This document shows positions 13,301-52,455 of a DNA stretch of 64,000 bases, one piece after another (position 1 is the stretch's first letter; each line of letters begins with the position of its first letter). Both the position numbers and the translations under genes were made by a program. The notes under the pieces were generated by a model. That model was not told where the DNA came from. It was given only the letters and a program-made list of their open reading frames with translations, and made no database searches. Origin of the DNA: Allacma fusca (taxonomy: Eukaryota > Arthropoda > Collembola > Symphypleona > Sminthuridae); assembly GCA_947179485.1 (NCBI GenBank), contig OX359247.1, positions 57,137,131-57,201,130 of the forward strand, written 5' to 3'.

Positions 13301-14745
13301 TAGTACTCGGAACAGTTCAGTTCGATTCAAAATTTGCAGTTCAGTTCAGTTTAAGCAGTGAACTGAAACGAAAATTCGGTTTCGGTTCAGTTCAAGTAAA
13401 AACAGTTCAGTTCAGTTCAGTTTCACCCTATGAACTGAACTGAATCGGTGAATCAAACAGTTCAGTCGCAGTGTTTGGTAAACAAGAACAATTGCGGATG
13501 TACACATATAGAGCTCCGAATTTAGTCATTCGAGTCAACCCCAGAAAAAACTGATTTCTTTTTCCTTTTAACCTGTTCCTAATCGCATTCACCATAGCAA
13601 TCAGTGCACTGGAGAATGCACAAATTATGATGAAGGTAATGTACTCTGGAATGGCCCTGTTTCAGAATCTACTTTTAGTAATCCATTGCTTCCATTTAGC
13701 AGTGCAGCTTTGGGCGAATTCAGTATTTACATTTTCCTTTGGATTCGTATCAATTTTAATTTTTTCAGCTCCGTAATAAAACCACAATTTTAAGTAGCTG
13801 TTGAAGTTTTAAAGAAAGTAATGCGAAATGCAACTTCTTTAGCCCCCAACCTTGGTCCAGCAACATAGCAATGTCCTATGGAATTATTAAAAGAAAAATT
13901 GTTAAATAATAAAGTAGTTAATAAACTGTTCATTATTCGTTAAATAACTATATTATGAGAATGAAACCGTTTGAACTGCAGTTTGCATTACATGGTTCAG
14001 TTCGATTCAAATACTGAATCGAACTGTTCAGTTCAGTTCAACAGCTGAACTGAACTCTATTTATAATGAATCAAACTGAACTGAACTGAACCGAATCGGA
14101 ACTTTTCGGTTTTTAACTGAACTGGTCCGAGTACTAGACTAGGTTATGGTGGTAGGTTGGTAGAATTAACAAGTATTATAGCGTTTCTTTATGAGGTGGT
14201 AGGTAGTTTTGAAAGTAAAACTCCTACCAACCTAAAGCCTATAATTACAACAATAAAAGGTTCTGGGTTGTAAGGGGTACTACTTTAAAAATTTCCTCTA
14301 AAAATGCATCGGGACATTTTTAAGTGATTTTATCCAAAAGCAAAGAACGTTTAAATGAACTAAATAAAAACAAACAAACGCATATTTTTTACTAATGTAA
14401 CACAGCGCCCCAAAGGCAACTTAGGACGCCATAAATGTAAATTGTACTCACATTGCTATGCTATATGTTTATTTTCGCCAACATTTTTATTACCTGAGCA
14501 GGAAAGAACCAAAAAAATAGATTTGAATCGGTACTTTCGTCAATTGTGAGGAATCCGCTGTAGCTCTTTAGATCCTTTCCAGTTCGAATTAATTTGGTAC
14601 TGCCTTCAGCGCTAGCTCGAGCTTTGACTAAATCGCCGCTTTTGATTAAAGGTGTTAAAAATAAGTCACCTTCAGTCGCTGAAGCGAAGAATGGTAGGGA
14701 GCATAGCCCCAAAAGAATGGCCATCAAAAATGAGCGTTTCCCCAT
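10372..14745 (-). CDS. Serine carboxypeptidase-like protein, catalytic residues lost (copy 1)
   Basis: Five exons: 14745-14494, 12100-11917, 11811-11665, 11580-11339, 10908-10372. All junctions are GT/AG, phases agree, and the total is 453 codons. A signal peptide (MGKRSFLMAILLGL, cleavage near ASA-TEG) predicts secretion or lysosomal routing. The fold follows the S10 family (CPVL/vitellogenic carboxypeptidase type): SYSGFLTIDE, NLFFWFFPA, APVILWVNDIPGFSS, YIDAPVGTGFSF, DFYLAGETYA, then a C-terminal block with FYSAQFD and RNAGNYAIRDQP. Active members are acid exopeptidases removing C-terminal residues. Here the nucleophile motif GESYAG reads GETYA (Thr192), the catalytic His position is Asn430, and the oxyanion GGPG reads DIPG; Asp373 is kept. 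Peptidase activity is therefore unlikely. Intron 1 holds two transposons. A near-identical paralogue is at 44275-49668. Confidence 0.85.
12624..14223. mobile_element. TIR element with GGTAGG words in intron 1 (copy 1)
   Basis: Inverted ends GAGTTTTACTTTC...GAAAGTAAAACTC enclose arrays of GGTAGG/GGTATG words and a run of TCCCTG-rich sequence. It lies in intron 1 of the carboxypeptidase-like gene and is shared with the second duplicate (48396-49136), so it predates the duplication. In this copy it was later split by the element at 13301-14136. Target duplication was not resolved. Confidence 0.6.
13301..14136. mobile_element. hAT element with CAGTTCAGTT words
   Basis: Ends TAGTACTCGGAACAG...CCGAGTACTA are flanked by the perfect 8-bp duplication GACTAGGT (13293-13300 and 14137-14144). 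The second duplicate has the uninterrupted site near 49049, proving a post-duplication insertion or a loss there. Subterminal regions are dense in GTTCAGTT. The ends resemble those of the autonomous hAT at 26029-31048. Confidence 0.9.
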
Positions 14746-15214: not shown

Positions 15215-16070
15215 CAAAGGTGGGCACCTCGCCTGAAACTAGGCCTTGTAAATAGGCAACTAGGAAGGAAGGAAAGCAAAACGGAGAGGTTTTTAGCAAA
15301 GTAACTAGAAAGGTTGTAGAATTTATGTCAAAACTAGGGAATAGAATAGTAAGGCTGAGAATTTGTAAAATAATAGGCAAGTTCATAGGAAGGGTGAGGG
15401 AATTGGAAGGATCCTAGGAAGGACTACCGGGAAGACATATATTTGATGCCAACCAGCGGCAAGAGATGAAACTATTTTGTATGATTTCTGCTAGTTATTT
15501 GTATTGGACCGTATAACGTTGAATAAACGACAGTCATACACAAACTGTGAAGAAATTCCACCCATATGGACCCCACTAATAGTTAGACGTCTGGATTCGG
15601 TGTTGCCGTAGATTTCATGTTGCGCTGTGAACAGGGTTTATTTTTAGTGCATTAATATTCTGAATGCTGCTAACGTTAAAATATATCTTACAGAAAATCA
15701 ATCCAAACTTGGAACTTATCATGTGTTCGTCTAACAATATACATTTTAAATGATGACAATTATCATATTTACCCAATTATGTTAATATATAGATACATAT
15801 TGTTTCTCAACGATATTCGTAAAGAAATGTACAATTTTGACCCAACCAACTTTAAGGCTGAACAAAGGCAATTCAGGCTGAACTAGGCATTTTAGGCCCT
15901 ACTAGGCAATTTAATAATCTGACAAGGAAATAGGAAGGGCAATTATATGCCCATTTTTAGGGAAAAGGAAATCAGCAAAAGTCCGGTTTAGGAAGGGTAT
16001 TAGGAAGGACAATCGAGATTACATTGTAGAGGTAAGGTTTCAAGCGAGGAAAACCAGTTGCCCACCTTTG
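15215..16070. mobile_element. hAT element with TAGGAAGG words (copy 1)
   Basis: Ends CAAAGGTGGGCA...TGCCCACCTTTG carry the perfect 8-bp duplication CCTACATG (15207-15214, 16071-16078). AGGAAGG/CTAGGCA words fill both arms. It is shared with 50133-50984 and so is older than the segmental duplication. Confidence 0.9.
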
Positions 16071-16504
16071 CCTACATGTATACAAAATTAGACGGATTAA
16101 ATTCAAGCCAACGTTAAGAGAATACTTACATCTCAAAAAATAAGAGATACAGTGGGAACGAGACCTACTTCCCAGACCAACTGATGAGGATGGATCTGCG
16201 GGCTATGTTTGTCACTGAAAAAACAATTTTGCACTTAATATTTTTCAGAATGTGAAGTGCAAACGAGTGAAGGTACGGAAGGTTCAATAAACTATTTCAC
16301 AGATTGCTTATATTGGTATAACTATTATACATGATAATCTAAATTACGCCGGTGAGAGATAAAAATATAGCTTAAAAATGAAGCCCTTTAAGTCTTAAAG
16401 AGTTTGATGTGAAACAAAATCATTTATTTAGGTGCCAACATGTAGACCGAAAAAAGTGGTTATTTTGTAGGGAACAGCCTAATGGAGAAGCAGATATATT
16501 TAGT

Positions 16505-16936
16505 TCAATAAATAATACAACTATAGTTAAACTGGAAATTTAAGCTACTGACTTGACGAAGTATCGATTGAAGTAGATTTTCTGAGCTTTGCACTCCAGT
16601 CCGGTGAACTCCTACAATGAGGATGAAGTTTTTTTCAAGATGGTAATTTGCACTCGAGCCTGAAACAGTTGAAGAAAAAATTGCTTTATTCTTGACAATG
16701 CAGGTTGGAAGATCACCAAAACGTTTTACCATAACAAATATTAGCACATAAATCGCAATCGTACAACTAGTTTCTAAATTATTTCACTGGTTTCGAGGAA
16801 GCAATTAATACTTGCCTGGTTGTGCTTGCTTCTGACCATAAACAACTTTCCCGTCAAACTCATCGCAAGGCACGCCCATGTCAGTTCCTACTTGAGCAAT
16901 AGTTATGTTCAGATGATCTTCTGTATCTACCTAGTA
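16505..16936 (-). pseudogene. Two-exon gene remnant of unknown function (copy 1)
   Basis: On the minus strand an exon at 16936-16816 follows a good acceptor (TTATTTCCAG) and encodes [20 protein letters not shown] and then [10 protein letters not shown]. It ends at a GC donor (CAG|GCAAGT). A second exon begins at 16659 after CTGTTTCAG. The first exon has an in-frame TAG near its start in this copy; the second duplicate reads YLEDIED there without a stop. I do not recognise the family. Further upstream exons were not found. Confidence 0.4.
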
Positions 16937-16976
16937 CTGGAAATAATTACACACAATTCTGAATTCCTAAAGTGAC

Positions 16977-17850
16977 AGATGTGGGATTTGCTGACGACTT
17001 GGCTGTGATAGCTAAATCTGTGGAAGGAACACGTGAGTTGGGGAAAATGGCTTTATTAAACATGGACAAAGTTGGATACAGTTCGAATTTATCAAAATGT
17101 AAATCAAGAATTGGAATTATGTGAATATTAATTGATGCAAATTTTATCATACCATCAATTCGAAAAGATGAAGCCATCAAATATCTTGGCGTTAATTTCA
17201 ATAATGAAATTATTTTTGAATTTGCTGCTACAATGAAAAATTTTGGAAAAGATTTGCAAAACTTAGTGAGCACACTAGTGATGCCAATGGTCTGGTCTGA
17301 TCCAGATTTTATGAAACTGGTCTGGTCCGAAGCTGAAACCAGACCAGACCAAAGACCATGATCCGGACCATGGTCCAGAAAACCATAGAGTGCAATTAAG
17401 CAATCACATTTTATCCAATGAAATTCTTGTTTTATCACCAGAAATGCCATTTTTAATTTGTTCTATGAGATTTCGTTAACTCATAATTTTTATTCTGAAT
17501 ACTTTTTGGACCAGGATCCTTGTGGTCTGGTCCGGTCTGGTCTTGAAGCTGGACCAAATGTATCTGGTCTGGTCCAAGTGTTGGATCAGACCGGACCAGA
17601 CCAATAACGGACCATTATAAATGGTCCGGACCAGACCATTGGCATTCCTAGAGCACACAATTGCTCCGCCCAGATCATAAGCTTCCATTATCAACCAACA
17701 CATCTGGCCAACACTTATTTATCCATTGCAATGTGCTCCCATGAACTTTTTTATTGGACTTGAATAACGTATTAACGAAGTCTATAAAAGAAATTGTTGG
17801 TCTCCTGATGATATTCCGACTTCAGTGCTTTATACCTAAAGAAGTTTAAA
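16977..17850 (+). pseudogene. Non-LTR reverse transcriptase relic (copy 1)
   Basis: A decayed fragment of a LINE reverse transcriptase. Visible blocks are VGFADDLAVIAKSVEG (the FADD catalytic box, about 16980-17030), KYLGVNFNN (about 17180-17210) and, beyond an inserted hAT element, a C-terminal block reading LNNVLTKSIKEIVGLP-like sequence (about 17760-17810). Frames are broken by several indels. It runs straight into the 36-bp minisatellite, which may have grown from its 3' tail. The less damaged copy is at 52456-52980. Confidence 0.7.
17276..17650. mobile_element. hAT element with GGTCTGGTC words
   Basis: Ends TAGTGATGCCAATGG...CCATTGGCATTCCTA are flanked by the perfect duplication GAGCACAC (17268-17275, 17651-17658). 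The second duplicate has the empty site (near 52766). The interior is almost entirely GGTCTGGTC/GACCAGACC words. Confidence 0.9.
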
Positions 17851-17859
17851 AGTTACTGT

Positions 17860-18366
17860 AGTCTGGTCTTATGTAAAGTAAGCAATGTATTTTGTAGTTT
17901 GGTCTTGTGTAAAGTAAACAATGTATTTTGTAGTTTGGTCTTGTGTAAAGAAAGCAATGTATTTTGTAGTTTGGTCTTATGTAAAGTAAGTAATGTATTT
18001 TGTAGTTTGGTCTTATGTAAAGTAAGCAATTTATTTTGTAGTTTGGTCTTATGTAAAGTAAGCAATTTATTTTGTAGTTTGGTCTTATGTAAAGTAAGCA
18101 ATTTATTTTGTAGTTTGGTCTTATGTAAAGTAAGTAATGTATTCTGTAGTTTGGTCTTATGTAAAGTAAGTAATGTATTCTTTAGTTTGGTCTTATGTAA
18201 AGTAAGTAATGTATTTTGTAGTTTGGTCTTATGTAAAGTAAGTAATGTATTCTGTAGTTTGATCTTATGTAAAGTAAGTAATGCATTTTGTAGTTTGGTC
18301 TTATGTAAAGTAAGTAATGCATTTTGTAGTTTGGTCTTATGTAAAGTCAGTAATGTATTTTGTAGT
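17860..18366. repeat. 36-bp minisatellite (copy 1)
   Basis: About 14 tandem copies of a 36-bp unit containing GTTTGGTCTTATGTAAAG. Because 36 is a multiple of three, long frames stay open on both strands (for example a 12-residue CSLVLCKVSNVF repeat), but composition and the other-strand frames argue against a protein. The homologous array is at 52985-55520. Confidence 0.9.
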
Positions 18367-18571
18367 TTGTATTTTCATAGTTTAGGTGCGTGTTTAGTAT
18401 TTTGTAGTTTGCATTTTCGTAGTTTAGGTGCGTGTTTAGTATTTTGTAGTTTGCATTTTCGTAGTTTAGGTGCGTGTTTAGTATTTTGTAGTTTGCATTT
18501 TCGTAGTTTAGGTGCGTGTTTAGTATTTTGTAGTTTGCATTTTCGTAGTTTAGGTGCGTGTTTAGTATTTC
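18367..18571. repeat. 42-bp minisatellite
   Basis: Five near-perfect 42-bp units containing TTTTCGTAGTTTAGGTGCG directly follow the 36-bp array. They are missing from the second duplicate. Degenerate related units reappear near 20205-20360. Confidence 0.85.
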
Positions 18572-18832
18572 GTTCGCTATATCCTTTATTATTATTGACC
18601 ACTTCCTGTCCGTTGATTTAAACTTTCGCGGCCTTGGCTTTACAATTCAAACCTTTGCGAGTCATTTCACTATACTGCAAGCCGCTATGCACTACATTAT
18701 TTCGCTATATAGCCAAGCAAGTAGGTGGTATATACAACAAGCTGAGAAGCACAGCGGGCTGAAAGGCTGAAACTCTGTCGCAGAGGAGAGTTTTTTCAGT
18801 TCGCTTTGTCAGCTCGCTGTGCTTCTTGGCTA

Positions 18833-19012
18833 CAGTCAACTCTCGCTATAAGGGATACTCTTATAAGGTATTTCTCGATATAAGGGATCAGGATTAACAG
18901 TCCCGATTCCTATTTACACAATGTATTTAACAGTATTCTTATAACGGATTGGTGTTTATAAGGGATAGATTTTGCCGGCCCCTTGAGCATCCCTTTTAGC
19001 GAGAGTTGACTG
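18833..19012. mobile_element. TIR element resembling pogo/mariner MITE
   Basis: Inverted repeats CAGTCAACTCTCGCTA...GCGAGAGTTGACTG, preceded by TA; the right-hand TA is not intact. It includes TATAAGGGA words like those in the MITE at 7623. Present only in copy 1 of the duplication. Confidence 0.6.
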
Positions 19013-19398
19013 TGTATACCAACCGCTTGCGGCCTACTGGAAGCTCGCAATATTACGCAATTTTAGATATTTTTTAAAAAGAGCTAATCATAATTATTAT
19101 AAACATTAGACAAATCATCAAATTTGGATTAAATTAAGTTTGGCAGTGAGAAAAACTACGTTCGGTTACAGCACTGCAGAATTTGATTACAGGAGAATTT
19201 TAATGACTGAATTTTGTACGCATAAGTGTGTGATTTTTATTAGGAAAAAGCAAATGGAATTGAAAGTACTCACTGCAACACGTTTTATATTTAACGTCAG
19301 ATAAATTCCAAGAATTTGTATTGCTGAAGTTATTTGTTCACTACTTTTTAATTACAAGCCTTAACATCCATACACTTGATCTTTATATCCCCTAAAAA

Positions 19399-19553
19399 CA
19401 GGGGTGGATTAATAAAATAATTTTTACCCTGGCCCTAACCCTATAAATAGTTTTGTGGGCCTTTACATATGATATCTGCAATCTGAGGGCCTTAGTCATC
19501 ATTTTTTTTACCCTGGCCGGGCCAGCGTGGGCCACCCCTTAAATCCACCCCTG
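19399..19553. mobile_element. Short hAT MITE (CAGGGGTGGATT family)
   Basis: Ends CAGGGGTGGATT...AATCCACCCCTG with the perfect 8-bp duplication CCTAAAAA on each side. Two other members are at 20926-21096 and 56123-56291. Confidence 0.9.
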
Positions 19554-20017
19554 CCTAAAAATATCATTATGAAGTAACGATTGATTTGTTGGAACCATGG
19601 ACTTTAGTAACTACAGCAAGTGAAAAGTGTTGCACTAATATGAATTCCTTTAATATTTCATATTTTTAAATAGTCAGTGCGTCCAGTGTCTGAGGCTTCA
19701 GTTACATTATTACGGTACAACTGAGCTATGTATATACAAATTATAATAACATACAAAATCATATTTTATCAGCACGTTATGCTGATCTACTAAGGAGTGA
19801 AGCACCATACAGTGATAACAAGTGAGGGACTCACCATACAGTGACCAACAACAATATTTAATAACAATGTTGGTAATAAATTGATCAAGCGATTAGTTAA
19901 ATTCCACGTGTATAGCCAAATATTGAGTTTGGGAAAGAACTTTAGTGGGTTGTAGCGTTTTACCATAATTTTTTGATGATGATTTTTTATTGCCAACTAG
20001 CTCCATGAAACGCATTG

Positions 20018-20045
20018 CCCCTGTGAAGCACAGGGCTTTTACTAG
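20018..20045 (+). mobile_element. Helitron-like 3' terminus
   Basis: A 7-bp hairpin CCCTGTG-AAG-CACAGGG is followed by a ten-base tail ending in CTAG, with T as the next base: the layout of a Helitron 3' end inserted between A and T. The same hairpin and tail occur in reverse at 31123-31149. The 5' end (TC...) was not identified. Confidence 0.5.
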
Positions 20046-20925
20046 TACTATATAAGCTGCCTGTTTTTTGTTGGCGCTCTTTCTTTGGGTTTGAAATTTA
20101 CGGTTATTCCAATAACCAATTACAACAATGAAGTAAAACGAAATGCAATCGTTTTAACATCCCATAAAACTAAATTCAAGATTTTGAATTTTCTTGTAAT
20201 TTTGCAAGTATGTGTTTAGTATTTGGTTGTTTGTATTTTCTACGTTTTGAGTATGTATTTAGTATTTGGTAGTTTTTATTTTCTACGTTTTGAGTATGTA
20301 ATTTGTAGTTTGTATTTTCGTCACCTGAAGAATGTATTTAGAATTTTGTAATTTGTATTTGGGAAGCATGTATTTTACACAGCTCTGTTGATTCGTAAGC
20401 TATTTGAGTTCCCTTGCAAAAATCTATCCCGACCAAAATTTTGAAATCATGGAAATCATTTTCACGAATAATTAAAACTATGGATTTTTCTCCCAATATG
20501 CAAGGATTCATGAGAGAGCTAAATCCTTCCTCAGGAGGAAACCTATGATACAGGTTTTAATTATATGAAAGTCAAATTAATATTTAGCAGGGTTCGGATT
20601 TTAGCAGTCACCATGAATTTTGCAAACCGCATTGAAAAACATGAATACATTTTGAAGGCTTGGTTCAAATTTCCAAATATTCTTTTACTAGAACAGTAAA
20701 GTGGGATGGAATTAGTTTTGTTCTTGTGATTTAAATATTCTTAAATGTGCATTATAGTTATAAAGTGTGTAATGGTTGTAAAGCCGTAAGAAAGCAAGCA
20801 ATTAAATTTACAACAGTTTTGGTTAATAAAACAAGAAATTGTTGAAGCAAAAATTTAAAAAATATTACTAGTATAAATAAACTTTGAAATAATTATATTT
20901 GTTCTTTAGATCCCATGGCTTTGCC

Positions 20926-21096
20926 TAGGGATGGATTAATAAAATAATTTTTACCCTGTCCCTAACCCTCAAAATAGATTTGTGGGCCTTGACACATGAT
21001 ATCTGCAATCTGAGGGCCTTAGTCAACATTTTACCCTGGACCTAAATTTTTTACCCTGGCCGGTCCTGGGTGAGCCACCCTGTAAATCCACCCCTG
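20926..21096. mobile_element. Short hAT MITE in P450 exon (CAGGGGTGGATT family)
   Basis: The right end CCACCCCTG and a mutated left end TAGGGATGG are flanked by GCTTTGCC (20918-20925, 21097-21104), a perfect 8-bp duplication of P450 coding sequence. The same insertion is in the other duplicate. Confidence 0.9.
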
Positions 21097-22244
21097 GCTT
21101 TGCCTGTGATTGGTAATGTGCTGGAATTAGGAGGATTTAAACACGTGAAACCAGAGATGCGCAGCTGAAGGCAGTGCTCGGACTGGGTACGGGTAATACT
21201 CGGGTAAATGGGTACGGGTACAGGTTTGGGTACTACCCGGGTACAGAAGTTGGGTACTCGCAAGTACGCAGGTACTACCCGGGTACTCTTTATTTTAGGC
21301 AATAAAGTGGGTACAGGTACGGGTACGGGTATGGGTACTCACTCAGTGGCAATCGGGTAGTACCCAATGGGTACGGGTATCACTATGTAAAATGCCTGTA
21401 CCCGTGGGTGCTGTACCCGAGTATTTTTGGGTACTTCAAGGATTCCTGATGCGATGGATTACTACAGTATGGCTAACAATAAGACCTACCAACCGTGGAG
21501 TTGCTTATTTCGTAGTATACAGATACTTGCGTTAGTGACAGAGCCAAGTGGCTTCGTCTCATTTATTATTACGTGGTAGTTGCAATCTAACGCTTCTAAT
21601 AATTCATCCAAGGAATCTAATAAAGAAATAGAGCGTAGAGTCAGCGAAATCATCTGTTTATCGACTTAGCTCATCAACGAAGAATTTCAAGAGGGCGGTT
21701 CTTGGGATTCAATTTGATTAGCTTCATTGGAAACGTAACATTACAATTATTTGAAGACGTATTACGAGATAAGATCGGAATAAATATACCTTTTTTTCGA
21801 AGATCCATTTCTTAACGTTACAAGTAATTACCCAGGGTTGCCCATTTGAAAACGTTAAGGCATTTTATGCAGGCAATTCGAGCATTTTCAATTCTGGGTA
21901 TTTATGACACTTTGAGTATTTATTGAGGGGAATATTTATAACATTTTAGAATGAAAAATATCATTCCTTGTACGCAATATTTATATTTCAGTCCCTTTGA
22001 TTAATCTTGATAATTTTGATGTTAAAACAACTTGACAGACATCTGAACGTGGCGTTCAAAACTTCCATGGGGTTGCATTTTAGTCCTATTTTGCCTGCAT
22101 TTTTCGAAAATCTCCGTCTCGGGCTTCATAAATGTGAAAGACAGTTTACGAATGTTTGTTTTATAAAGCTGTAATATAAAGTGATTTTTCAATATTGCCT
22201 CCCACATTTATTTCCTGAAACCGCAATATATGACTTATTATGAT

Positions 22245-23574
22245 CAGTGATGCAATCGAACCGATTATTTCAAAACTCGATGTTGGTTCGTATTCGAATT
22301 AGGATTACCGATTCGAAGTATGCCTTCAAATCGAAGTTGGTTTTACAAAACCAAATCGAATAAATCAAGAATTTGAACAATTTATTCGAATCGAATATTA
22401 AAACTAGGTATCGATTGTTATTTCCTTCGAGTTATTCGGTTCGAAGTTGGTATCGAATCGGTTTTTTCGATTAATGGGTTAAGTATATCCATTCCTCAAT
22501 TTATTTAGATAACAAAGTCTAAGATTTAACAATTCTTGAAAATGAATACGTAGCGACGAATTGTTCTTTCGGCCCGAACTGTCGCGTCAATTGTCTCATA
22601 CAATTGACTAAGAACTAATTGCTTTTGGGTGTTTATTTCTTAAACGAATCAAAGTTGCTCGTGGTCCCGGATGACAATTTACCAAAGCTTGATCTATGTA
22701 TAAATAAAAGTAATACCTACCATTAAACGTTAGACACCTTGAGAATACTATGAAGGAGGTTAGGGCTTCTTTCGGGACTTGACGTCCCGAAGTTTTCAGG
22801 ACGGGACCGGGATCGGCACAGTTTCGGGACAAAATCGTTGTACCAATTTTATTTCGGGACTGAATGGCGACGAAAGTTTTTGTCCGGAGGATGTTGGGAC
22901 TGGACAGAATTGTCGCCGGGACACAAAATTGTCCCATTAGAAGCCCTAGTGGAGGGTTACAGTATAAGTATATGTCTATTAAGTAATTTCAAAACATTTA
23001 GGAAGCTTATTTGCAATAAAATCTTACTTGAAGTATTTGCAATGATACAGATTTTCTTTTAACGTAAAATGATTGTGGGCAACGGATAGGTTTTTTTCGG
23101 CATTGTGGAGTATTCTCACAGCTTTCAGCGTCATTGGTGACAATATCAATGATATTTGCTACCATGTAATTTTAAATTTACGAAAATTAATTTTCAAGAC
23201 GTTCAAAGTGTTGATGTTGAGACTCTTACTTCCTCACTACATTCCTCATCAGGCAAGTGGTTACTCTCCTCGTGATAAGAATGCCGTGGGGTGTATAATT
23301 CGTTGATAGAATTTAAACCGTGGCGGGAATTCGATTGTTCGAAAAACCAATTTCGAATACAAAGCGATTAAAAACAGAATCCGTATCGAAATTGGATTTG
23401 TAGTTTAACTAATCGGTTCGAACTTTAATCGGTTTGATAAACCAACTTCGATTGTTCATTCCATTCGAATTATGTTCCGATTAACGCAACCGAACCGATA
23501 GCTATTGGCTAATCGATTCGGTTCGTATTCGAAATCGAACATTTCGATTATAATCGTAATCGGTCGCATCACTG
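22245..23574. mobile_element. hAT element with TCGAA words, nested level 3
   Basis: Ends CAGTGATGCAATCGAACC...TCGCATCACTG with the perfect duplication ATTATGAT (22237-22244, 23575-23582). Arms are full of TTCGAA/TCGAATCGA words. Confidence 0.9.
22761..22948. mobile_element. TAGGGCTTC-ended MITE with GGGAC words, nested level 4
   Basis: Ends TAGGGCTTCT...AGAAGCCCTA and GGGAC/GTCCC words match the element at 25802-25976. The flanks AAGGAGGT and GTGGAGGG agree at only five of eight bases, so the target duplication is weak. Confidence 0.7.
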
Positions 23575-24689
23575 ATTATGATCAACTCAATTTTTCCGTA
23601 TAACATTTTCTATACACAGAGTTCGATTAGCCGGAAAAAAATTATTGTGAAAAATTATTGGTTATTAAAAAGTTAAAAAATGACTTAAATAATTTTTTCA
23701 AAAAATTCAAATAGGATGTCTTTAACGCCAAGGGAAAATTCCCAAAATCCCGGACACTTTTAATGGAGGTCAAAAAATTTACAAAATTAAAATTTTTCAG
23801 CTGCACAGGCTAATGTCGTCGGGGATTTTAAATCGGCCAAACTTCCAGTACCCGAGTAATACCCGGGTACACACAATAGATACTCGGGTACGGGTACAGG
23901 TTTTATGTACATTACGGGTACGGGTAAATTGTGGGTACAGGTACCACATTGTATTTTAAGGTACGGATACGGGTACTGAAATAATTTACCCGGGTACTCG
24001 GGTATGGGTACGGGTATAGGTACAGCATTTTGAAGTACCCGATATTCGGGTACGGGTATGGGTACGGGTACACGATTTCTGTACCCAGTCCGAGCACTGG
24101 CTGAAGGCTAGCCTTCCTTGAAGGCGGAAAAGTAACTTTCTTAACATTGCAGAAGGAAAGGAAGGATGGGGATACTCTTTTCCTGAATGCTAAAGGAAGC
24201 CTTCACAAAAATAGCAATGTATGATTGTGAAGAAAGGTTCGTAAATATTAGCCCTCTATGGCCGCGAAGGCTTCCAAGTACACGAAATATCTATGACGTG
24301 AAATTATAGCATATGCAATGACGTTTTGCTGCTAGCGCAACAATGTAGCCAATTCGTGAACTCACAACTGGCAATGTGTGCCCGCTCTCTTCACTGCAAT
24401 GAATCCTGTTAGTGCAAAACGTTTCTAAGCGGGTTGTAGTTTAAAATTGAAGGAAGGCTAATTTTAGAAGAAGGCAAAAATGAATGTATGTATTTTGGAA
24501 GGAAGGGTGAAGGAAGGCAGATTATTTAGAGGGCTTCATTTTAGGATATGTTGAAGGGGAAATTTTTACTGAATTTTCGCCTTCGAAGGTTTGAAGAAAG
24601 GCTATTTTGTTTGCGCATCTCTGCGTGAAACTGGCCAAATACGCAGACAAGTATGGGGATGTTCTTCAAATTTGGTTCGGTGGTAATCG

Positions 24690-25801
24690 GTAGGTTATTT
24701 GTTTCCGTATAATTATTCATAGTCATTTGTTTTAATTTCAGTACCATTAAGTAATTAATGGTAATGAATGAAATACACAAGGTACCTCTCAACATTCACC
24801 CCCCAAGCACGAAAAAAGGATAATGATCAAAATCATTCAGTTACCACGCAGTTAGTAGCAAATTCAAATATTCTTCTAGATCTTTTAAAAATTGTTCCAT
24901 CCCCATAGTTCAAACACAGCGCTCATGGAAGTGGACGAAAGTTTTGTAATTTTGACTCCAATTTAAAAATTCTTCAAACAGTACAGTTTAACGCTTGTTT
25001 ATGGCAAATTTAACCCCTAAATTGAAAAGTCTAGACTCAGGACGCGTGACTCATATTGGTCTATACTGTAAATATCACCGTTCATAAGTTTTTAGTCGGG
25101 ACCTTTGTACCTGAGTCTGTTTTTTTTGAAAACGGCCCCCGTCAAGGTCACTATTTTATAAAATATTTTTATAGGGCCCATCGGATTCGTAATTGAATGA
25201 AAAGCTTTTAAATTTTATTTTTGCCGTAAATCCCAATCGGAAGGTCATAAAACCGAAAACACCCGAAAAATGCAATAATTTATTACAGCCTTACCAATTT
25301 GAATATTAAAAAATTTGCTATCTCAAATATATTGTCCCATTAACTACTACAGTCATGATTTGTTTCCCCATTGTAACATCAAAATTTCGGAATTTTTCAA
25401 AAACATCGCATGCACATTTTTGAAACTTTGAAACTCAGGGATTTTTTTGAGTGCCGGCAGTTGCAAATATGCACTTTTTAAACAGTCTTATCTCAAGGAA
25501 GCATAAATACTACATTTTAAAATTGATAAAAAGTGCATATTTACATCTGCCGGCAGTCAAAGCGGAGGAAATCCGAAACGGGTAGTTTATATACATATCT
25601 AGTTAAGGCGTTGTGCACATGTTACCAAGCACGCAAAAATTGTTTGCGAATACATACAGCCAGCATGCAAGCATTGCTTTGCTCGCTGTAGTGGACGAGG
25701 AGTGGAGGCCCCTGCCAACGTAATATAAGGGCAGCGCCTTCGCCGTGAACAGAAAGCCCTATCACGATTCATTCTTTTGAACCGTGCCGCAGCTCAACTT
25801 G
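24690..25801. other. Intron or intergenic sequence after the split P450 exon
   Basis: No exon was recognised. The part up to 25540 is shared with 56966-57828. A short CGATAAAAAGTGCATAT stretch marks the end of the segmental duplication. Confidence 0.4.
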
Positions 25802-25976: not shown

Positions 25977-26459
25977 TCAACTAGTCCCAAATTATTTTTT
26001 TAATAATTTGCGATTGGTTGGTTTTAGCTAGTGGTCGGACCAATTCAGTTCAAAACCGAAATTTTCAATTCAATTCGGTTCAGTTTGGTTCAATTTTATT
26101 TCAATTCAGATTGCGTGATGAATTGAACTGGGCGGTTCAGTTCACCCCGGTGAATTGAATTGAACCGCGGAGTGTGAACTGCAATTCAAACGATTCGTTC
26201 GAGCACTCTACCTACAACCCCAATAATGAGACAACGGGCATTCAACTACAGTCTAATAATCTCGCCTCACCTCTCACTTATGCTCACAAAGGAATGATCG
26301 ATTGTGTTTGTCTGATCAATTTTCCTCCAAATTAGACTTACAATTAGTAGTCGTTGCGGGTCTTTTTAAGCAACAATTCTTGATAAACATTCTGGATTAT
26401 AGAATCATATTTCAAAATTCATAGAGGGACACGAAGTACCGTGTACCCCGAATTATATA

Positions 26460-28871
26460 ATGGAAGAACCAGAATCTGCGAATCCGTCCGATTCGGAGGA
26501 AAGTGTAGTGCTTGAAGAGAAAAACGAAACATCTACGGAGCCAAAAAGAAAGAAACCTAAAACATATGGATACCCGATAAAAAATGTTCAAGTACTGGGA
26601 AATGGAAGTCCAAAGATGCCAAGTGCGGGTAAGGATAATTATATTCGTTCATAAAATTATGATAACAATAAACTTGTTAACGACCGCGAATAAAAAATGT
26701 ACTCTCTTTTTAAAATTATAGTAGCAGGGATATACTTTGCATTGTATCCCACTATGCATTTTAAAATATTATAATGTACTTGATTTAGGAACGAGTACAA
26801 GATTTCAGTTGGTGGCGGAACCTCATCCTTGAAAAACCATTTAAAACGGCGGCATAGAACCATTTTCAATCACTGAGGATGAAGCTCAAGTTCAAATAAA
26901 TGACCAGCAAGACATAAGAATGTATTGCAAACAGAATTCGGGCAAACAACCAAGACATGAGGCAATTACGGCGGTTGGATTTAAGGAGAAACTTGTTAAC
27001 TTTTTAGTAACATCAACCTTTTACATAAGTTGAGGAAAAGGAATTTCGCAATTTTGTGGCTTATTGTACTAAAAATTCCGCACTCACTAAATTACCCTGT
27101 GCCAAAACTGCAAGAAAATACATCGTGGAAGCCTATGAGAGTTATTTAAACACAACGAAGGAAAAATTAGCTTCATAATCGACTGCTGGACATCACCGAA
27201 TCAGAATCCATTTCAAGGAGTTGTTGCAACCTTTGTAGACAACGAATGGAAACTGCACAGTAGTGGTCGACCTAACCATGCTGGAAGGGAGCCATAGTGG
27301 AGAAAATGTTTGCGATGCATTTTTAAATGTACTCGATGAATTTGATCTCTGGGACAAATTTTTGGCCCTCACAACAGATAACGCAACTAGTATGGATACA
27401 ATGTTTGATTATTTGGATATTAAGGCTCTGGAAAAAGGATCTCAGTTCTGCGCCAAAAAATATCGTGTTAGATGTTTAGCTCACATACTAAATTTGTGCT
27501 GCAAGACAATTATCAAATCGAACGGGCATAATGAAGAAGGTTTTGAAGAATTAGAAACTCTATCTGAGCAACTAGACGATGAGGTTACGCCAGGAAATCC
27601 CAAGTCAAAAATGGAGAAAATTATTGGAAAACTTCGATCTGCCGTTATATGTATAAGAGCATCCCCCAAAGACGGCAAACATATCGAAGAAATTGCATCA
27701 TTAATAACATCTCACCCAAGATGTTAATTCGGGATATCGACATCCGATGGAATTCATCTTTGATGATGATGGAAAGAGCTTATGAAATGAAGGAACCAAT
27801 GGAAGCAACATTACAATCATATCCTAAACTTCGTTGCAAAATACTAACTTCGGAGGACTGGAGTTGCATCGAACTTTTGATCGGAATTCTGAAGCCATTT
27901 CGAGAAGCAACTTTAATGCTTTCAAGCCAACATTCTCCTACTCTCTCTCAGACAAGTGCAATATATTCTGCACTCTTTAACCACCTTGAGAAATACACCA
28001 TTACTTCGAACACATCGCGACTTGCAAAATCCAAGTTCCCTGAGTGGTTAAAGGAATCTGCTCAGTGCGGGCGGGATAAACTGAAGAAGTACTACCCATC
28101 ATCAGACGGGGAGGTTTATGCTATAATCACAGGTATTTGGAAGGGGTCTAATGTTCATTATAGCCCACTGATCTGTTTCTATAATATTTTGCATCAACTT
28201 TTTTTTGCTTCAAGTTTTGGATCCGAGGTGCAAATTAGAATTTTTCAAGAATGCAAATTGTAGGAAAGAGTGGATCGATTGTAGCAAAACAATTGTTGTC
28301 GATGTTTGGAAAAATAAATACAAAGTTACTGACGTCGATGAGGGAGTAACTGCTGATCCGAAACCATCCACTTTGATTTTTGATAACATGTTCGGGTGCG
28401 CTACAGCATCAAAGAAGAACTTGGATGATGACCTGACACGTTACTTGGCTCACAAGCCAGTACATGCGGATAGGCTTCAAAAGGATACTACTGGAATTGA
28501 TGGTGCTCTGGGTTGGTGGAAGGTATGATACATTTTACCTGATTTCAAATTAATGTTACATTTAACGTAGAAATATTAAAAGATATTTATTTATTTCCTT
28601 GAAGATTCATCAGAGCAAAATTCCCCAGCTATCAAGAATGGCAAGGGACTATTTGGGTATTCTTGGTTCAGGAATGGCAGTTGAGAATTTCTTTTGTTCA
28701 GGAGGAGATTTAGTTGGGCCTAGAAGACATAATATGTCTCCACAATCCATAACGATGTGTATGTGCTTGAAAAACTGGATGGAAACGAAATCATCACAAC
28801 AGGATATCGTCTGTAAGTTCCTTCAAGCTTTACGATATAAAGTTCTTGGATTCGAAGATTTTGATGAATAG
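26460..28871 (+). pseudogene. hAT transposase, frameshifted
   Basis: The transposase would bind the element ends and catalyse excision and insertion. Visible parts, in order: an acidic N-terminus from ATG 26460; the end of a BED-type zinc finger (GGGTSSLKNHLKRRH, about 26815-26865) after an intron; KISFIIDCWTS with the first catalytic Asp (about 27160-27195); LTTDNA with the second Asp and RCLAHILNLCCK (about 27370-27510); DIDIRWNSS (about 27735); VLDPRCKLEFF across an intron at 28133-28214; and the C-terminal dimerisation block WWK|IHQSKIPQLSRMARDYL...VENFF across a second intron at 28523-28604, ending with TGA/TAG near 28871. Frameshifts near 27262 and 27710 break it, and the upstream zinc-finger cysteines are not in frame. 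It shares its terminal repeats with an oppositely oriented exonuclease. Confidence 0.85.
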
Positions 28872-29323
28872 TTCCCACTTTCAGCTTAGCGGGATACGAT
28901 ATATGGTATACCCCTGCTGTGATCCCCAAATATCGTTTATTTGACTGTAAGGAGGTGACTGAGTGTAATTGCACGAATTAAATTCGGTTTCTGCAATAAT
29001 TATTATACGTACACACATATTTGCCATAATAGCATAGAGGGAGACAATGGACTGTTTACCCCAGCTTTTAGTGCTTATTGTCCAAATGGTATGTGAAAGT
29101 CGGAATATTAAAGCATATTAATAATGTGTATACAGTATGTTAGGATAATTTGGATTTGTATGCAAAGAAATAATTACACTTGTTAATTTAATTTGTATCC
29201 TTTTCACGAAGTAGCATAGTGGGAAACTATGAAAAGTTAAGCTAAACTGAATGAAATCATTAAAAAATATGAAAATAAACGAACATATTGTAAGAAATTT
29301 ATTTTTTTGAGACAAGTGATTTG

Positions 29324-30481
29324 TTAATCCCAATTCCAATGTTCAAGGCTCACGTTTCCGAAACCAGAATATTCCACCTTCCCTTTCTTCTTATTTTTCA
29401 TCTTTGTCTTCGTAGCTCCACAAGTACACTTTCTGTCCCAATTTGCTTGCCGCTTGGGTTTGCCGATAGAATCTCGAAGATCATGGAATACTTCACAATC
29501 ATACCTTTCTTTTTCATCTGATTTCATTTTTATTATTCTTCGGTAGCACACCGCGGTCACTCGCGCATCGACGATTGAGGAATGAATTTTTTCCTGCATA
29601 TCTTGACCCAAAAAATGCTCCGATAAAACTCCTAGGCCAATCGGTTGATTTTTTGCATCGCGATAGAATTCCTGAATATCTTTACTTGCGCCAGACTCTG
29701 GCCTTCCTTCGGTATAGCCCAAACTTATCCAATTGTTACGAATGTCGGCTCCATAGATAGTTTTCCCACGAAACAGCCTATCCAGTAACTTCCGGATCTG
29801 TAAAGTCAAGAAAATCGCGTAAAAATGTCTCCTCTGAAATAATGCCCCTTAATTATAATGACTTTTCGGGTTCCTTACAAACTCAATGCGAACTCCACTC
29901 CTTAGCTTATCTGCGTTCAGACCGGTCATTTTTGTATTGTACTTGCAAACTTCATCACGCTGGATGTATGCCCAAAACAATAAATTCCCTCTAATGTCCA
30001 CAATTGAAATGTCTCCTGCCAATGGCTGATGACTACCAGCCGCTATTACCTTCTCAACATCGAGAAATAGTAAACCGGTCGTCCTCAAGGCATCTCCACG
30101 GCAAATTAAAGCTACCTGTAATAAAATGATTTCATTAAATTACGTATCAGCATCACATACAAATTAATTTTACTAATTTTAGTGAATCAAAATTAACTTA
30201 CTTCCAATGCAGGCACTGAATCCATCACATTCTTTGAACAACTAGCCTTGACATCTAAGGCATTGGAGTCTTTCTTCGACATTACATCGTTGTCCACTGC
30301 ATCCTTTCTAACCTTGGAACACAGCAGATCCCGTCTTTGGAAATAAGTTTTTCCACAAATCGACAATAGAATTTTTAAGTTTTTTTCTCCTCAACATTCC
30401 ATGGGCTACTCTTGAAAAGTTCAAAAAAAGAGACGTGTACTCCTCTTTAGAAAGCCCCTTTATTTGATCCAGTAATTCTGC
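29324..30481 (-). CDS. DEDDh 3'-5' exonuclease (REXO4/ISG20-like) inside the hAT element
   Basis: Exons 30481-30202, 30115-29879 and 29797-29324 have GT/AG junctions in phase. Exo I reads LFLDVEKV (family D-x-E), with DISIVDIRGNLLF and YNTKMTGLNADKL following as in REXO4/ISG20 proteins. Exo II reads GADIRNNWISLGY where the family has an aspartate after HN; the aspartate is replaced by asparagine. Exo III reads EKIHSSIVDARVTAVCY with His and Asp kept. Family members trim RNA or DNA from 3' ends. The 5' exon has a frame break: AELLDQIKGLSKEEY...LWKNLF in one frame, then a cysteine-containing ICGKTYFQRRDLLCSK stretch in another. The tail is lysine-rich and AATAAA follows at 29302-29297. No host flank separates this gene from the element termini, so it appears to be cargo or an integral second gene. 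Current activity is doubtful. Confidence 0.8.
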
Positions 30482-31122
30482 CTACATAAAATATAAATAA
30501 ATTCAACTTTTTGCATACACGTGTTACTCTCATTTCGTTGGTTAAATTTTATAATTGAGAATGAGTCCAAAAGCATTGATTCTTACAGAAAGAATGCTTC
30601 GATAAATAAATATTATATGGTATTATAGAGAGTGAAAATGGATTGTTTGTTAGCGCCTAATTATTTGCCTAATTATTATATTATACGCAATTATTTATTA
30701 AAACGTACTTACCACACGTGGGGGTACAGAGTACGATTGAGGCCCTGAAGGGTCCTGCTTTGGGCAATGAGAATGAGACCGAAAATCATTTTTGATTTTT
30801 TTTAAATACTGGCAAAATCAAATCAAACTGAACTTTTATAAGATTCACCAAAGAGAAACGCGTATCTTTTAAAATTTTCGCGCGTGAACCGAATGGTTCG
30901 TGGTTCAATTCAGTTCATAGTGTGAAACTGAACTGAATTGAACTGATATTTGTCCAACTGAATCGAACGACACTCATTCAATTCAATTCAGCATGTAAAC
31001 TGAATTGAATTGGTATTTTTGAACCAAACTGAACCAGTCCGACCACTAGTTTCAGCCCAATAATATTTGGCCTCAAAATTACCCACACTATGTAAATTGT
31101 ATATATGTACATTATATGTACA

Positions 31123-38689: not shown

Positions 38690-40135
38690 TCATCTTATTA
38701 AGCCCAGCTTTCGGCTGCAACAACTATTATGTGACCCTGAAGCTCTTTTCACCCTCTGCTTAAATATTTGCTATCTTCCTATTGATATTATGCTGACTGC
38801 AGCTCTCGGCTACATACATTCATCCATTATATGTAACCCGGAAATATGAACAGAAATATCGTCACTCTCTGCTTAAATATACACTTAACATACTTTTTGA
38901 TCCTTAAATTGCTTGACTATACATAGGTTACAGGGCAGTTGTTGTAAAGTTGGCCGGAGCCTCAAGTGAACATGTCCAGAACGCCAGCGGTTCAAGTGTT
39001 AGCACGATTTAGTTCTAACCTCAGGGTAACTAATTACATCTAAGAATGTTTCTTACATAATTTGTTTATTGTAGTATCTTTAAAGAGGTGTCTCAAATTT
39101 GAAGCCCAAGTCGTAAATATACCGAGTAACTTCGGGGTTTATAATACCCGCCACCCGAACTTCGGATGTTTCAACAATTCCTCTCCTCTCTAGTTTCGGG
39201 GTGGTATATAGTAGCCAGGTGAGAGATTTAAACAGAATTTCAATCTTTTTCACCAATTCCAAACTCAACTAATGCGTTACAAATAAATAATAATTTATCC
39301 CGGTAAGTCCCAAATTGAAGTTGGATTGTAAAATCATTGCATGCTGAAGTTGTATGGTGTATGTTTTATATAGAACGAATTGTTATGAACCAAATATAAT
39401 GTTTTTTGAAATATGTAAAACGGTATGTACCTCAAGCTTATTATTTATTACATATGCTATCGAGAGAACAAGATATTCCATTTTGTTTTACGTTAGTGAA
39501 ACCTAGCTGTAACCTCAAAATAATGTTGTAGATCAGTGAAATCATGTTTTTCAAATCTAGGATCAAATTTGCTACAAACTAAGGAGATCAATTCTGTTGC
39601 GAATCAACCCCTTATGTAGGCTAGACTACTCTGAAAATACTTTATATCCGTATTATGTACAACGATGTTTAAAAATATTTCACAACATTTAATTAAATTG
39701 TTTTGTTTTTAATAAAGCGGCACATCATGAATAGCCAAAGATGAATTAAATTTTCAAGACAAGATTAAAGGATAAGATAATCATTATAAAAAATACTTTT
39801 AGTCCAACAGATGTACAGATACCTCCGGACTGAAGACGTGCCTAATATAGCGGCTCTAATATTTAGTACTACTTAAATGACAGCAAAAAATACATGTGTG
39901 ACTGTACTTACATACGAATAATAATGTAGTTGTGTATGTATATAACTCTTATGATATCTTACACCAATAGATGAAAACATGCAATTATGCGATAGTTATC
40001 TTATTAAGCCCAGCTTTCGACTGCAAACCATTATTATGTGACCCTGAAATGTGAAAAGGTTCGAAGCTCTTTTCACTCTCTGCTTAAATACTTGCTATCT
40101 TCCTGCTGATATTATGCTGACTGCAGCTAGATCTA
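38690..40135. repeat. Local duplication upstream of a P450 exon 1
   Basis: About 120 bp at 38690-38810 (TATTAAGCCCAGCTTTCG through TGCTGACTGCAGCT) recurs at about 39985-40130, roughly 450 bp before the P450 start codon. The sequence between is unremarkable. It may be a duplicated promoter segment. Confidence 0.6.
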
Positions 40136-42314
40136 TTCAATAAACAAGTGGTTTCTATATGTGCATATATATTTGTCGACTTATCTGTATTCACACTTCA
40201 AAGCATAATCATTGTTGTCCTTGTGTGACTGGACCTTGATGCAAAATTTGTTTTTGTACCCGACTTTTTCAAGCCGTACATTGAACATTGTTCACTAATA
40301 ATAGCTTATTATACATTACATACATATGTAGGTGTGCCCTTGTGTTCTGTGTAAAGCGAATCAATTATGAGTAAGCTTAATGTACGATGAAGTTTACTGA
40401 GTAAAAAATGGTAAAATACATCTGCTAGGCTATTCCTTCTCATTTCACTCAGGGAACTTGTCTCCCACACAAATGCATACGTAATGCTACAAAGTGGATA
40501 TTTGTAGTTTATGGACCAGTCCAGGTCCAATTTGTTTGTTTAAGGCTTACTAAATCAAAATAAGATCATCATGATTTCCCTAACTGGAGCTTTGGTTCTA
40601 TGTGCAATAAGTATAATCGTTTATAACATTTTCTTCAAAAACGATGGAAAAAAATATCCGAAAGGTAAAGTATACACAAATATATTGTAAATACATTTGA
40701 ATTCATCTTTTTATTTAACAATAGTAGACTTTAATAGCCAATTCATACTCAGGCTGACTCAGAATCATTTTTTGATTTTGTTTGACGGTTTTTTAATATT
40801 TTGGCTGCGTCTTTTGTTAAACTAACAATTTCGGTAAATTCTTTGAGAAAAATTCACCATTATGAGCTAGTGAGTTTAGGGATTGCATGAAATTCATGCG
40901 AAGTATAATATTAGATTTTGTTTTATTTGTCATAAGAATGCTTACCTGTTTTCAAAATTTTGAAAACTGTCTTTGGGGTTACGTCAAAATTTTAAGAATT
41001 GTAAAAACATTTGACTGGGATATATCACTCGATGGCTAAGAGTTTTTTCAAAAGCTTTAGACCCACAGCCGTATTTAAAAGCCCTACACAAAAAAACAGT
41101 ATGACCGAAATTTCGAAATTGCTGTTAACATTTTGGTGGGTTATCCAAAAGCATCACAGATTTTACTATTAACGTGTTAGCGATAATTTTCTCCAAGTAG
41201 TATATGGCCCTCGTAAGGATGAATTTGTCTCTGATGGAATTTTTAAACTCATGAATACTATCAAAATTATGTTTACTATAATTCAGAATTTAGTAAATAT
41301 AGCCACTTCAAGAGCACTCGTGAATTTTGAAACTGCATAACTTTTGACCCGGATGCTGCAGCTAGGCGACTGCCATCTCATTTTAAATCTATTGACTTGC
41401 TATACAGAAGTAATGCAAATTTCAAAATACTAACCAAAATTTTGGCGAAACACTTAAACAAGTATTTAAACGGAAGATTAGGCTTAAATCTCCAGTCTTC
41501 TTGGACGAGAATAGCAAAAAAGGAACGAGGTGATATATGTACATATATATTTATTTTATGCGGTGTTCATTGACTGCGTAAACCCTCATAAATAAAGCAT
41601 TACAAATTAAATTGTAATTAGAATACTGTACTGATTGTTGGAAGAAAATTACAAAATGATATAGTTATATAATCAAGTAATTTTAAAATAATGAGGAATG
41701 GTTGGTTGAGGTCCCATGTCTTTACCCTTGATTGGTAATATGCTGGAATTAAGAGGATTCATCCACCTGAAACTTGCAAAATGGGCAGACCAGTATGGTG
41801 ATATTTTTCAAATTTGGTTCGCTCGTAATCGGTAAGTCAATTGTTCTCATATTCTTATCCATATTAATGCTATTTCTATTCCGTTAAATCAGCGAACTAC
41901 GCATAATATTTTCATTGAATTCAGGATTACCAACAGTATAGCGTAAGACGAATACATACAGCACATGTGTCTGCTAATGAATTGAGTATGATAAAAGATA
42001 ATTATTACTACTTCATACCTGCTAAATATAAAGTAAATTCTGCATATTTGATCCTACAGAAAAACTGCTCGTATAAGTATGGTAACAAGAGTTCACTGAT
42101 TGTGAGTACTTAAACATACGTACATGTAGAGCACTCTCTTTATAGGAGATGATTTGAAAGGAACAGATTTTGACTTAAAATGACGTGCAGGTTCCTATAG
42201 GAAACAAAATTAGCAAGTTATGCATGTACTAATATTTTTACCTTGTAAGTCGGTCTCTGCTAGAAAGAATAGAATCCAATGGCTAGGCTATAATAATCAA
42301 CAAGAAATATAATG
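39451..42314. repeat. Second segmental duplication, copy A
   Basis: Aligns without visible gaps to 59119-61979 and carries the same two P450 exons. Differences are almost confined to the last 150 bases. It ends about 50 bp before the assembly gap. Confidence 0.9.
40571..41831 (+). CDS. Cytochrome P450, first two exons (copy A), incomplete
   Basis: Exon 1 (40571-40664) starts MISLTGALVLCAISIIVYN, a membrane anchor for the ER, and ends KKYPKG at a GT donor. Exon 2 (41711-41831) restores the glycine across the junction and encodes PMSLPLIGNMLELRGF, the P450 hinge, then HLKLAKWADQYGDIFQIWF, ending CG|GTAAGT. Both splice sites and phases are good, and there is no damage. Nothing downstream encodes the rest: 42362-42561 is unsequenced, and beyond the gap the sequence resumes at the 3' flank of a P450. 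Either the middle exons are missing from the assembly or they were deleted. Confidence 0.85.
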
Positions 42315-42361
42315 TGAACTCTAATGATTATGTTGTATGTCTACAGATGCTACGTTATAAA

Positions 42362-42561
42362 NNNNNNNNNNNNNNNNNNNNNNNNNNNNNNNNNNNNNNN
42401 NNNNNNNNNNNNNNNNNNNNNNNNNNNNNNNNNNNNNNNNNNNNNNNNNNNNNNNNNNNNNNNNNNNNNNNNNNNNNNNNNNNNNNNNNNNNNNNNNNNN
42501 NNNNNNNNNNNNNNNNNNNNNNNNNNNNNNNNNNNNNNNNNNNNNNNNNNNNNNNNNNNNN
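42362..42561. other. Assembly gap (200 N)
   Basis: Exactly 200 undetermined bases, a typical placeholder length. It lies between the P450 5' exons and the start of the second 15-kb duplicate. Confidence 1.
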
Positions 42562-43045: not shown

Positions 43046-43401
43046 GCACCCTATAAAAAATGTAATGCACGCCCTGTGCCTTTGTGAATTCAAAGGTTCG
43101 TTTTCCCTTGGCTTACGTAGCCTATACTTATAGACTATATCTTACATTAAATAAAATCGTTTCGAGCATTACTGGAGGCCTACTGAGTTCTAATGTCTTA
43201 TTGTACCCTTGGACAGATAACAATTTACGCTGAAGAATTTTTAGTTGGGTTTACCGATTGTGAACAAAAATTTACCAAATATTATGGTATTCTGGCTATT
43301 TTTTGCAATCCCAGGTTAAGTTCGAAGCATTGTTCTCATAAATCAAAAGTTAAAACTTCAAAAGACATAAATTTATGTTTGTGAGTATATTGGGTAGCCA
43401 T

Positions 43402-43960
43402 CAGAGATGCGCAAAAGAAATAGCCTTCCTTCAAGCCTTCGAAGGCGAAAATTCAGTAAAAATTTCCCCTTCAACATATCCTAGAATGAAGCCCTCTAAA
43501 AAATCTGCCTTCCTTCACCCTTCCTTCCAAAATATTTACGCTCGTTTTTGCCTCAGCCTTCTTTTTAAAAATAGCCTTCATTCAATTTTAAACTACAACC
43601 CGCTTAAAAACTTTTTGCACCAGCAGGATTCAGTGCACAAAAGAGAGCGGGCACACATTGTCAGTTGTGAGTTCACGAATTGGCTGCATTGTTGCGCGAG
43701 CTGCAAAATGTCGTTTCATATGCTATGCTTACACGTTATAGATATGTCGTGTACCTGGAAGCCTTCACGGCCTTAGAGGGCTAATATTTAGGAAGCCTTC
43801 CTTCACAATCCTTCATTGCTAGTTTTTGTGAAGGCTTCCTTCAGCCTTCAGAAAAAAGTATCCCCATCCTTCCATTCCTTCTGCAACGTTAAGAAAGTTA
43901 CCTTTCCGCCTTCAAGGAAGCCTTCTTGGAAGGCTAGCCTTCGAAGGCTGCGCATCTCTG
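43402..43960. mobile_element. hAT MITE with GAAGGC words
   Basis: Ends CAGAGATGCGCA...TGCGCATCTCTG with the perfect duplication GTAGCCAT (43394-43401, 43961-43968). The empty site is at about 10067-10076 in copy 1. Confidence 0.95.
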
Positions 43961-43972
43961 GTAGCCATAGTA

Positions 43973-44195: not shown

Positions 44196-44274
44196 AAGTA
44201 TTAATTTTCAGATCAAATACGTATCCCATTTTATGCAGAATAAGCTTTTCATGATTGGCTTATTTAATCAAACA

Positions 44275-52423: not shown

Positions 52424-52455
52424 CTGGAAATAATTACACACAATTCTGAATTCCT

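Follow-up and report, generated by a model that had tools for sequence, protein, structure and literature searches.

The hAT element described here, in a 64,000-nucleotide stretch of Allacma fusca DNA (the window), very probably belongs, as a decayed copy, to an old hAT lineage of two-gene elements, in which the transposase is accompanied by an accessory DEDDh 3'-5' exonuclease from the ISG20/REXO/PAN2 group, a group of known RNA exonucleases. hAT transposons form a widespread superfamily of DNA transposons, generally regarded as having a single gene each. Our element shares TIRs, 8-bp target duplications and a Dimer_Tnp_hAT transposase with Hermes, Ac and Tol2, and such ordinary hAT elements are not known to encode anything besides the transposase. 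We propose that the present lineage keeps a convergently transcribed DEDDh exonuclease gene beside the transposase, and that the exonuclease would be an accessory 3'-5' enzyme serving the element.

The element spans 5,020 bp, from 26029 to 31048, and holds a transposase gene on the plus strand and a facing exonuclease gene on the minus strand. Its features, together with a related short element in the window, are as follows.

13301..14136, no strand: short non-autonomous element related to the hAT element, its ends 75.5% and 69.5% similar to the hAT ends, with the 8-bp duplication GACTAGGT
26021..26028, no strand: left target-site copy GTTTTAGC, 7/8 against the right copy
26029..31048, no strand: whole hAT element, 5,020 bp, bounded by perfect 12-bp TIR matches and a flanking 7/8 duplication
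26029..26040, plus strand: left TIR TAGTGGTCGGAC, 12/12, no mismatch
26420..26449, plus strand: internal 30-bp dyad repeat, copy 1, 5' of the transposase
26460..28871, plus strand: hAT transposase gene with several frame shifts, recognised by Dimer_Tnp_hAT and Hermes similarity
26727..26756, minus strand: dyad repeat, copy 2, in presumed transposase intron 1
28885..28914, plus strand: dyad repeat, copy 3, intergenic
29033..29062, plus strand: dyad repeat, copy 4, intergenic
29298..29303, minus strand: AATAAA, about 20 bases past the exonuclease stop codon
29324..29797, minus strand: exonuclease exon 3, with motif II (GADIRNNW), motif III (HSSIVDA) and a C-terminal CxC and Lys-rich tail
29879..30115, minus strand: exonuclease exon 2, with motif I D-x-E (LFLDVEKV)
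30202..30481, minus strand: exonuclease exon 1, with one frame break; an in-frame start codon was not found upstream
31037..31048, minus strand: right TIR TAGTGGTCGGAC, 12/12, no mismatch
31049..31056, no strand: right target-site copy GTTTCAGC, 7/8 against the left copy

An earlier note on this DNA had placed the exonuclease gene within hAT termini carrying a 7/8 target duplication, and both parts of that description hold for the TIR TAGTGGTCGGAC and the flanks GTTTTAGC and GTTTCAGC. Short TIRs, as expected of a hAT element, match at 12/12 in the window element and in a second element, C41, at 11/12 in L039 and at 10/12 in L040; the 8-bp target duplication matches at 7/8 in the window and at 8/8 in the other three. 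The C-terminal dimerisation domain Dimer_Tnp_hAT was found in the window transposase (E 9.6e-12; joined pieces, E 2.6e-14) and in that of L040 (E 2e-8), and the window transposase matched Hermes at E 1.2e-4. The hAT DDE triad and the CxxH motif could be read in the window frames as IIDCWTS, LTTDNAT, CLAHILN and MAVENFF; the MAVENFF region aligns significantly with Hermes, and IIDCWTS and LTTDNAT align only within a 0.9-bit stretch. The N-terminal BED zinc finger is half present in the window, and in L039 it scores 18.4 bits, below the cut-off of 20.6.

The non-coding parts of the element contain a dyad-symmetric 30-bp repeat, roughly CATAGTGGGATACAATG....GTATACCCC. Its copies score 35-39 inside the element, and the best score elsewhere in the window is 10.4. 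The repeat also occurs in the C41 element (L036+L037, at 10589, 10893, 8026 and 8257; scores 24-35) and in a relative on C5 (L043:1586, score 26.8); at 25 other loci the best score is 25.6 and the median 9.2. It is possibly a protein-binding site. We dropped the idea that internal repeats bracket the exonuclease gene on both sides, as only weak matches lie 5' of the exonuclease.

The exonuclease gene (29324-30481) has three exons separated by GT..AG introns and is convergent with the transposase gene, in agreement with the earlier proposal of a spliced minus-strand, ISG20-like gene facing the transposase. Exons 2 and 3, when joined, give 236 open codons followed by a stop; from the element's own stop-codon frequency, the chance of 236 stop-free codons is about 2.5e-6. 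The joined exons match ISG20 (1wlj) at E 2.6e-7 and ISG20L2 (7yw5) at E 9e-5, and the window exonuclease had no match to Pfam RNase_T. The ISG20 alignment puts motif I at LDVEKV; a candidate motif I at VALICRG, which has no acidic residues, was dropped. The frame break in exon 1 sits between 30390 and 30311, and the C41 element has a 44% identical segment at the position corresponding to this exon. A predicted fold of the read-through exonuclease frame was uninformative (pLDDT 30).

Motif II of the window copy reads GADIRNNW, with Asp changed to Asn at one of the five DEDDh residues, and the catalytic set is thus incomplete. This Asn together with the one frame break suggests that the window copy is inactive and probably not a working enzyme. 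We considered whether the Asn is a family trait, the protein having ceased to be a nuclease and now binding nucleic acids or serving as a decoy. Taken by itself, the window copy fits this idea, but the Asp is kept in the five other hAT copies read. Moreover, the Asn codon AAT follows C in the window, where C41 has GAT after C (CGAT), as CpG decay predicts; a CpG change thus explains the Asn, and a loss of nuclease function across the family is quite improbable.

The DEDDh catalytic residues are complete in C41, L038, L039, L040 and L046, that is, in five of the six hAT copies read. A profile built from five sequences matched ISG20L2 (7.2e-10), ISG20 (1.9e-9) and six PAN2 proteins, which make up 8/8 of the matches at E ≤1. 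Matches to other collections were weaker: Pfam RNase_T reached E 0.0028 at best, in one of the five family members and short of the cut-off, NCBIfam gave E 0.16, and PHROGs gave a weak polymerase-exonuclease match (E 2.9e-5). A viral contig collection gave no match to a transposase piece, the exonuclease, the TIR or two alignments used as queries, and a bacterial and archaeal contig collection gave none to two alignments. The hAT exonucleases thus resemble ISG20, ISG20L2, REXO4 and PAN2 in their DxE, Asp and HSxxxDA motifs (in 5/6 hAT copies) and in significant sequence similarity, with segments of human ISG20 and ISG20L2 17-27% identical to them. Unlike the ISG20 group, they have an extra N-terminal segment and a C-terminal CxC and Lys-rich tail. 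Our direct comparisons were with ISG20, ISG20L2 and PAN2; the placement near REXO4 follows PMC3985635, in which this group clusters with REXO1, 3 and 4, and the earlier note.

We then took the two genes to the whole genome (one genome, Allacma fusca; 392,743,791 bases in 91 contigs). A protein search with the exonuclease gave 37 matches from 50 candidates, which were collapsed by hand to 26 loci. Transposase searches at E ≤1e-6 gave 101 matches at 54 loci with the window query and 86 matches at 52 loci with the L040 query; these lists, also collapsed by hand, are lower bounds and have at least one locus in common (C1:58.17 Mb). A transposase lay within 10 kb at 18 of the 26 exonuclease loci, and the two genes were convergent at all 18. 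In 1000 trials of random placement there were on average 0.157 such pairs and never more than 3, against the 18 observed; for this comparison the 10-kb distance was chosen after the positions had been seen, the C41 and C69 loci stood outside the trials and the length of C9 was assumed. Counted from the transposase side, at least 18 of the 106 listed loci had an exonuclease match within 10 kb (4/54 with the window query and 14/52 with the L040 query), and 88 had none.

The remaining eight exonuclease loci, without a listed hAT transposase within 10 kb, are of two sorts. Four are of a different kind (C1:62.5 Mb, C1:4.9 Mb, C8:42.9 Mb and C8:24.7 Mb), and four are hAT-type loci, out of 22 such loci: at C12:15.2 Mb a transposase lies 16-18 kb away, and C9:47.3 Mb, C8:12.5 Mb and C8:71.6 Mb have no transposase in the lists. 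Two exonuclease loci on one contig, C8:20925554 and C8:69052049, have equal scores and an equal distance (6,930) to their transposases, and represent either one large element in two copies or a duplicated segment.

These eight loci, and the existence of relatives with a single open frame, would be expected if the exonucleases were a family of host genes lying by chance beside or inside hAT insertions. However, four of the eight fall on the other side of the tree described below and do not share the interruption found in the hAT copies, each of the other 18 faces a transposase, against an average of 0.157 under random placement, and four elements have the gene enclosed by matching TIRs and duplications. 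We therefore give the host-family explanation very little credence. The data support the conclusion that the exonuclease belongs to the transposon.

Three elements besides the window element could be read from end to end. The C41 element is 6,966 bp long, with the TIR TAGTGGTCGGAA at both ends, the perfect duplication AATGGAAG and the two genes facing each other. Its exonuclease is 53-57% identical to that of the window, depending on the piece, and its transposase 41-74% by piece and 53% over long stretches; a TAG counted in the C41 exonuclease is the end of its presumed intron. The L039 element (C1:60.07 Mb; 6,573 bp) has the perfect duplication CTGCTAGA and the L040 element (C10:21.1 Mb; 5,233 bp) the perfect duplication ACCCCTAC, both with the same convergent layout. 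The terminus scan of L039 also gave two 9/12 candidates at A+T-rich places. The L040 transposase is a 607-residue open frame and scores above the Pfam cut-offs. For each of C41, L039 and L040, none of 60 shuffled stretches had a comparable TIR and duplication, at thresholds set after the matches had been seen. At L038 (C1:65.8 Mb), where the transposase lies just outside the fetched stretch, such termini were not found within that stretch.

That three other elements bounded by TIRs and duplications carry the same pair bears out the preference in the earlier note for a gene inside the transposon over an unrelated host gene beside one. It also bears on a one-off capture, in which a host exonuclease was picked up by chance and has no role. 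The decay of the window copy, and the many relatives and sampled short copies without the gene, speak for such an event. Against it, the same gene in the same orientation occurs at 18 loci, of which three besides the window have their own TIRs and duplications, and none of the 37 genome matches is a near-identical gene. Near-identity to a host gene had been named beforehand as the sign of a one-off capture; the best non-hAT-type matches among the 37 are 28-31% identical, or 22-28% over the aligned core. Since the same gene in the same layout is present in diverged families, a one-off capture is ruled out, refuted in the Allacma fusca genome by the C41, L039 and L040 elements, and we leave it a bare trace of probability.

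The exonuclease is not present throughout the family. The element at C5:514 kb has a transposase 63% identical to that of the window (for C41 the figure is 58% when that stretch is compared), and another site, on C8, gave identical transposase scores. We examined the C5 element at the end downstream of its transposase, where TAGTGGTCGGAT is found about 470 bp past the transposase together with 180 bp that are 72.5% like the right end of the window element. No exonuclease lies between the C5 transposase and this TIR, the best match in 1.7 kb being at E 0.053. The C5 element thus appears from its sequence to end without an exonuclease on that side, and the gene was either lost there or gained elsewhere. 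Given this relative and the 88 transposase loci without an exonuclease, the gene cannot be essential, and transposition can probably do without it. Related copies lacking the gene, which the earlier note had named as a sign of one-off capture, are thus seen in part: the C5 relative at the end examined and these 88 of the 106 listed loci have none, and C41, L039 and L040 carry it.

The 12-mer TAGTGGTCGGAC occurs in 977 exact copies in the genome (467 + 510), against 28 (16 + 12) for the reversed control. We sampled 27 of the 977 sites, all on contig C1 and drawn from 100 listed; the sequence on the element's side covered some 8 kb or more at 26 of them and 1.5 kb at one. Nearly all were short copies; tblastn detected the exonuclease at none of the 27 and a weak transposase piece at one (L034, E 7e-5), suggesting that most of the sampled copies are short and non-autonomous. 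One short copy, L017, has a 456-bp left end and a 174-bp right end like those of the window element, with the duplication GTCACACC.

A tree of the exonuclease with host genes, which the earlier note had proposed, gathered the six hAT exonucleases into one clade, set apart by a branch supported at 99/98; it compared 6 of the 22 hAT-type loci with four other genomic and two human exonucleases, and its root is unplaced. The window and C41 exonucleases pair with support 98/99. All six hAT exonucleases are interrupted at one shared place between motifs I and II, presumably by an intron, for which splice sites were checked in the window copy; the four other genomic exonucleases have one uninterrupted frame across this place. 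We label these four host-like on the basis that a hAT transposase is absent from the lists at their loci, and the non-hAT exonucleases of the genome are those known from the 37 matches listed. The DEDDh frames of the four, L041, L042, L044 and L045, are uninterrupted where read; L041 and L042 share 99% identity although they lie far apart on C1.

Divergence runs in parallel in both genes for the pairs window-C41, L039-L040 and window-L040. The window and C41 are 53% identical in the transposase and 57-64% in the exonuclease, L039 and L040 are 45% and 58% identical, and the window and L040 are 22% and 33-36% identical, respectively. Between the exonucleases at C1:65.8 Mb and C1:60.07 Mb, dS was 0.293 and dN 0.047 (dN/dS 0.16, 194 codons), which shows purifying selection on the exonuclease for this one copy pair; between the window and C41, silent sites are saturated. 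The gene might have entered a single hAT lineage by one capture and then spread to others through recombination or template switching between elements. Such exchange would agree with the patchy presence of the exonuclease and with its lower divergence than that of the transposase between the two groups (33% vs 22% identity). But the convergent layout is the same at 18/18 loci and the two genes group alike in the four elements compared, and we consider exchange unlikely. The preferred reading remains an old lineage in which the two genes have travelled together.

The rest of the window holds further repeats. A diverged duplication (7206-25540 against 43120-57828; pieces 87-98% identical) has a serine carboxypeptidase frame in both copies, and for at least two of the transposon insertions of the first duplicate the empty site is present in the second. 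One is the short element at 13301-14136, with an empty site near 49047-49059. Another is a 2.9-kb element at 21172-24099, with GGGTAC-rich ends CAGTGCTCGGAC and the perfect duplication GCTGAAGG. The 7206-25540 duplicate stops 488 bp left of the hAT element, so that an empty site for the latter is not available. A 2.86-kb direct repeat (39452-42315 and 59119-61982; 99.7% identical), whose first copy lies near a 200-base N run (42362-42561), is either a recent element or an artefact of the assembly. In both duplicates, tandem arrays that repeat every 36 bases (17812-18621 and 52941-53840) are open in several frames.

Because ISG20 and PAN2 are known as RNA exonucleases, RNA is our first guess for the substrate, and we lean slightly towards a role in the trimming of RNAs of the element or the host, which may include small RNAs from the convergent transcripts. 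DNA, in the form of ends, hairpins or gaps that the transposase produces, would be a possible but less likely substrate, and we doubt that the substrate is neither RNA nor such DNA. A more specific suggestion, that a hAT-encoded exoribonuclease degrades or trims small RNAs or dsRNA precursors as a counter-defence against RNA silencing, seems rather speculative to us.

DEDD exonucleases are already known from other DNA transposons. KolobokD elements, described in PMC9587614, are Kolobok DNA transposons of molluscs, arthropods and cnidarians that carry a DEDDh exonuclease; the authors suggest that the exonuclease degrades DNA intermediates from the 3' end and describe it as similar to exuperantia, TREX and ERI1. 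They are like the present lineage in joining a DDE transposon with an accessory DEDDh exonuclease. They differ in having a Kolobok transposase and TTAA duplications, whereas our elements have hAT domains and 8-bp duplications, and the KolobokD description (TREX/ERI1/exuperantia-like) sets their exonuclease apart from that of the hAT elements, whose profile matches were 8/8 to ISG20L2, ISG20 and PAN2. Dada elements of Laccaria and Ectocarpus, described in PMC3706591, likewise combine a C/DxxH-group DDE transposase with an exonuclease, thought by the authors to process cleaved 3' ends; there a DEDDy domain lies inside the transposase, whereas the hAT lineage has a separate, convergent, spliced DEDDh gene with an H-x4-D motif III. 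Among the literature matches listed, by titles and the starts of abstracts, we found no hAT element with an exonuclease.

A hAT lineage with a selected second gene of the RNA-exonuclease type would mean that accessory nucleases occur in hAT, as they do in Kolobok and Dada. The hAT gene pairs with open frames would make the role of the nuclease, be it end processing or silencing evasion, directly testable.
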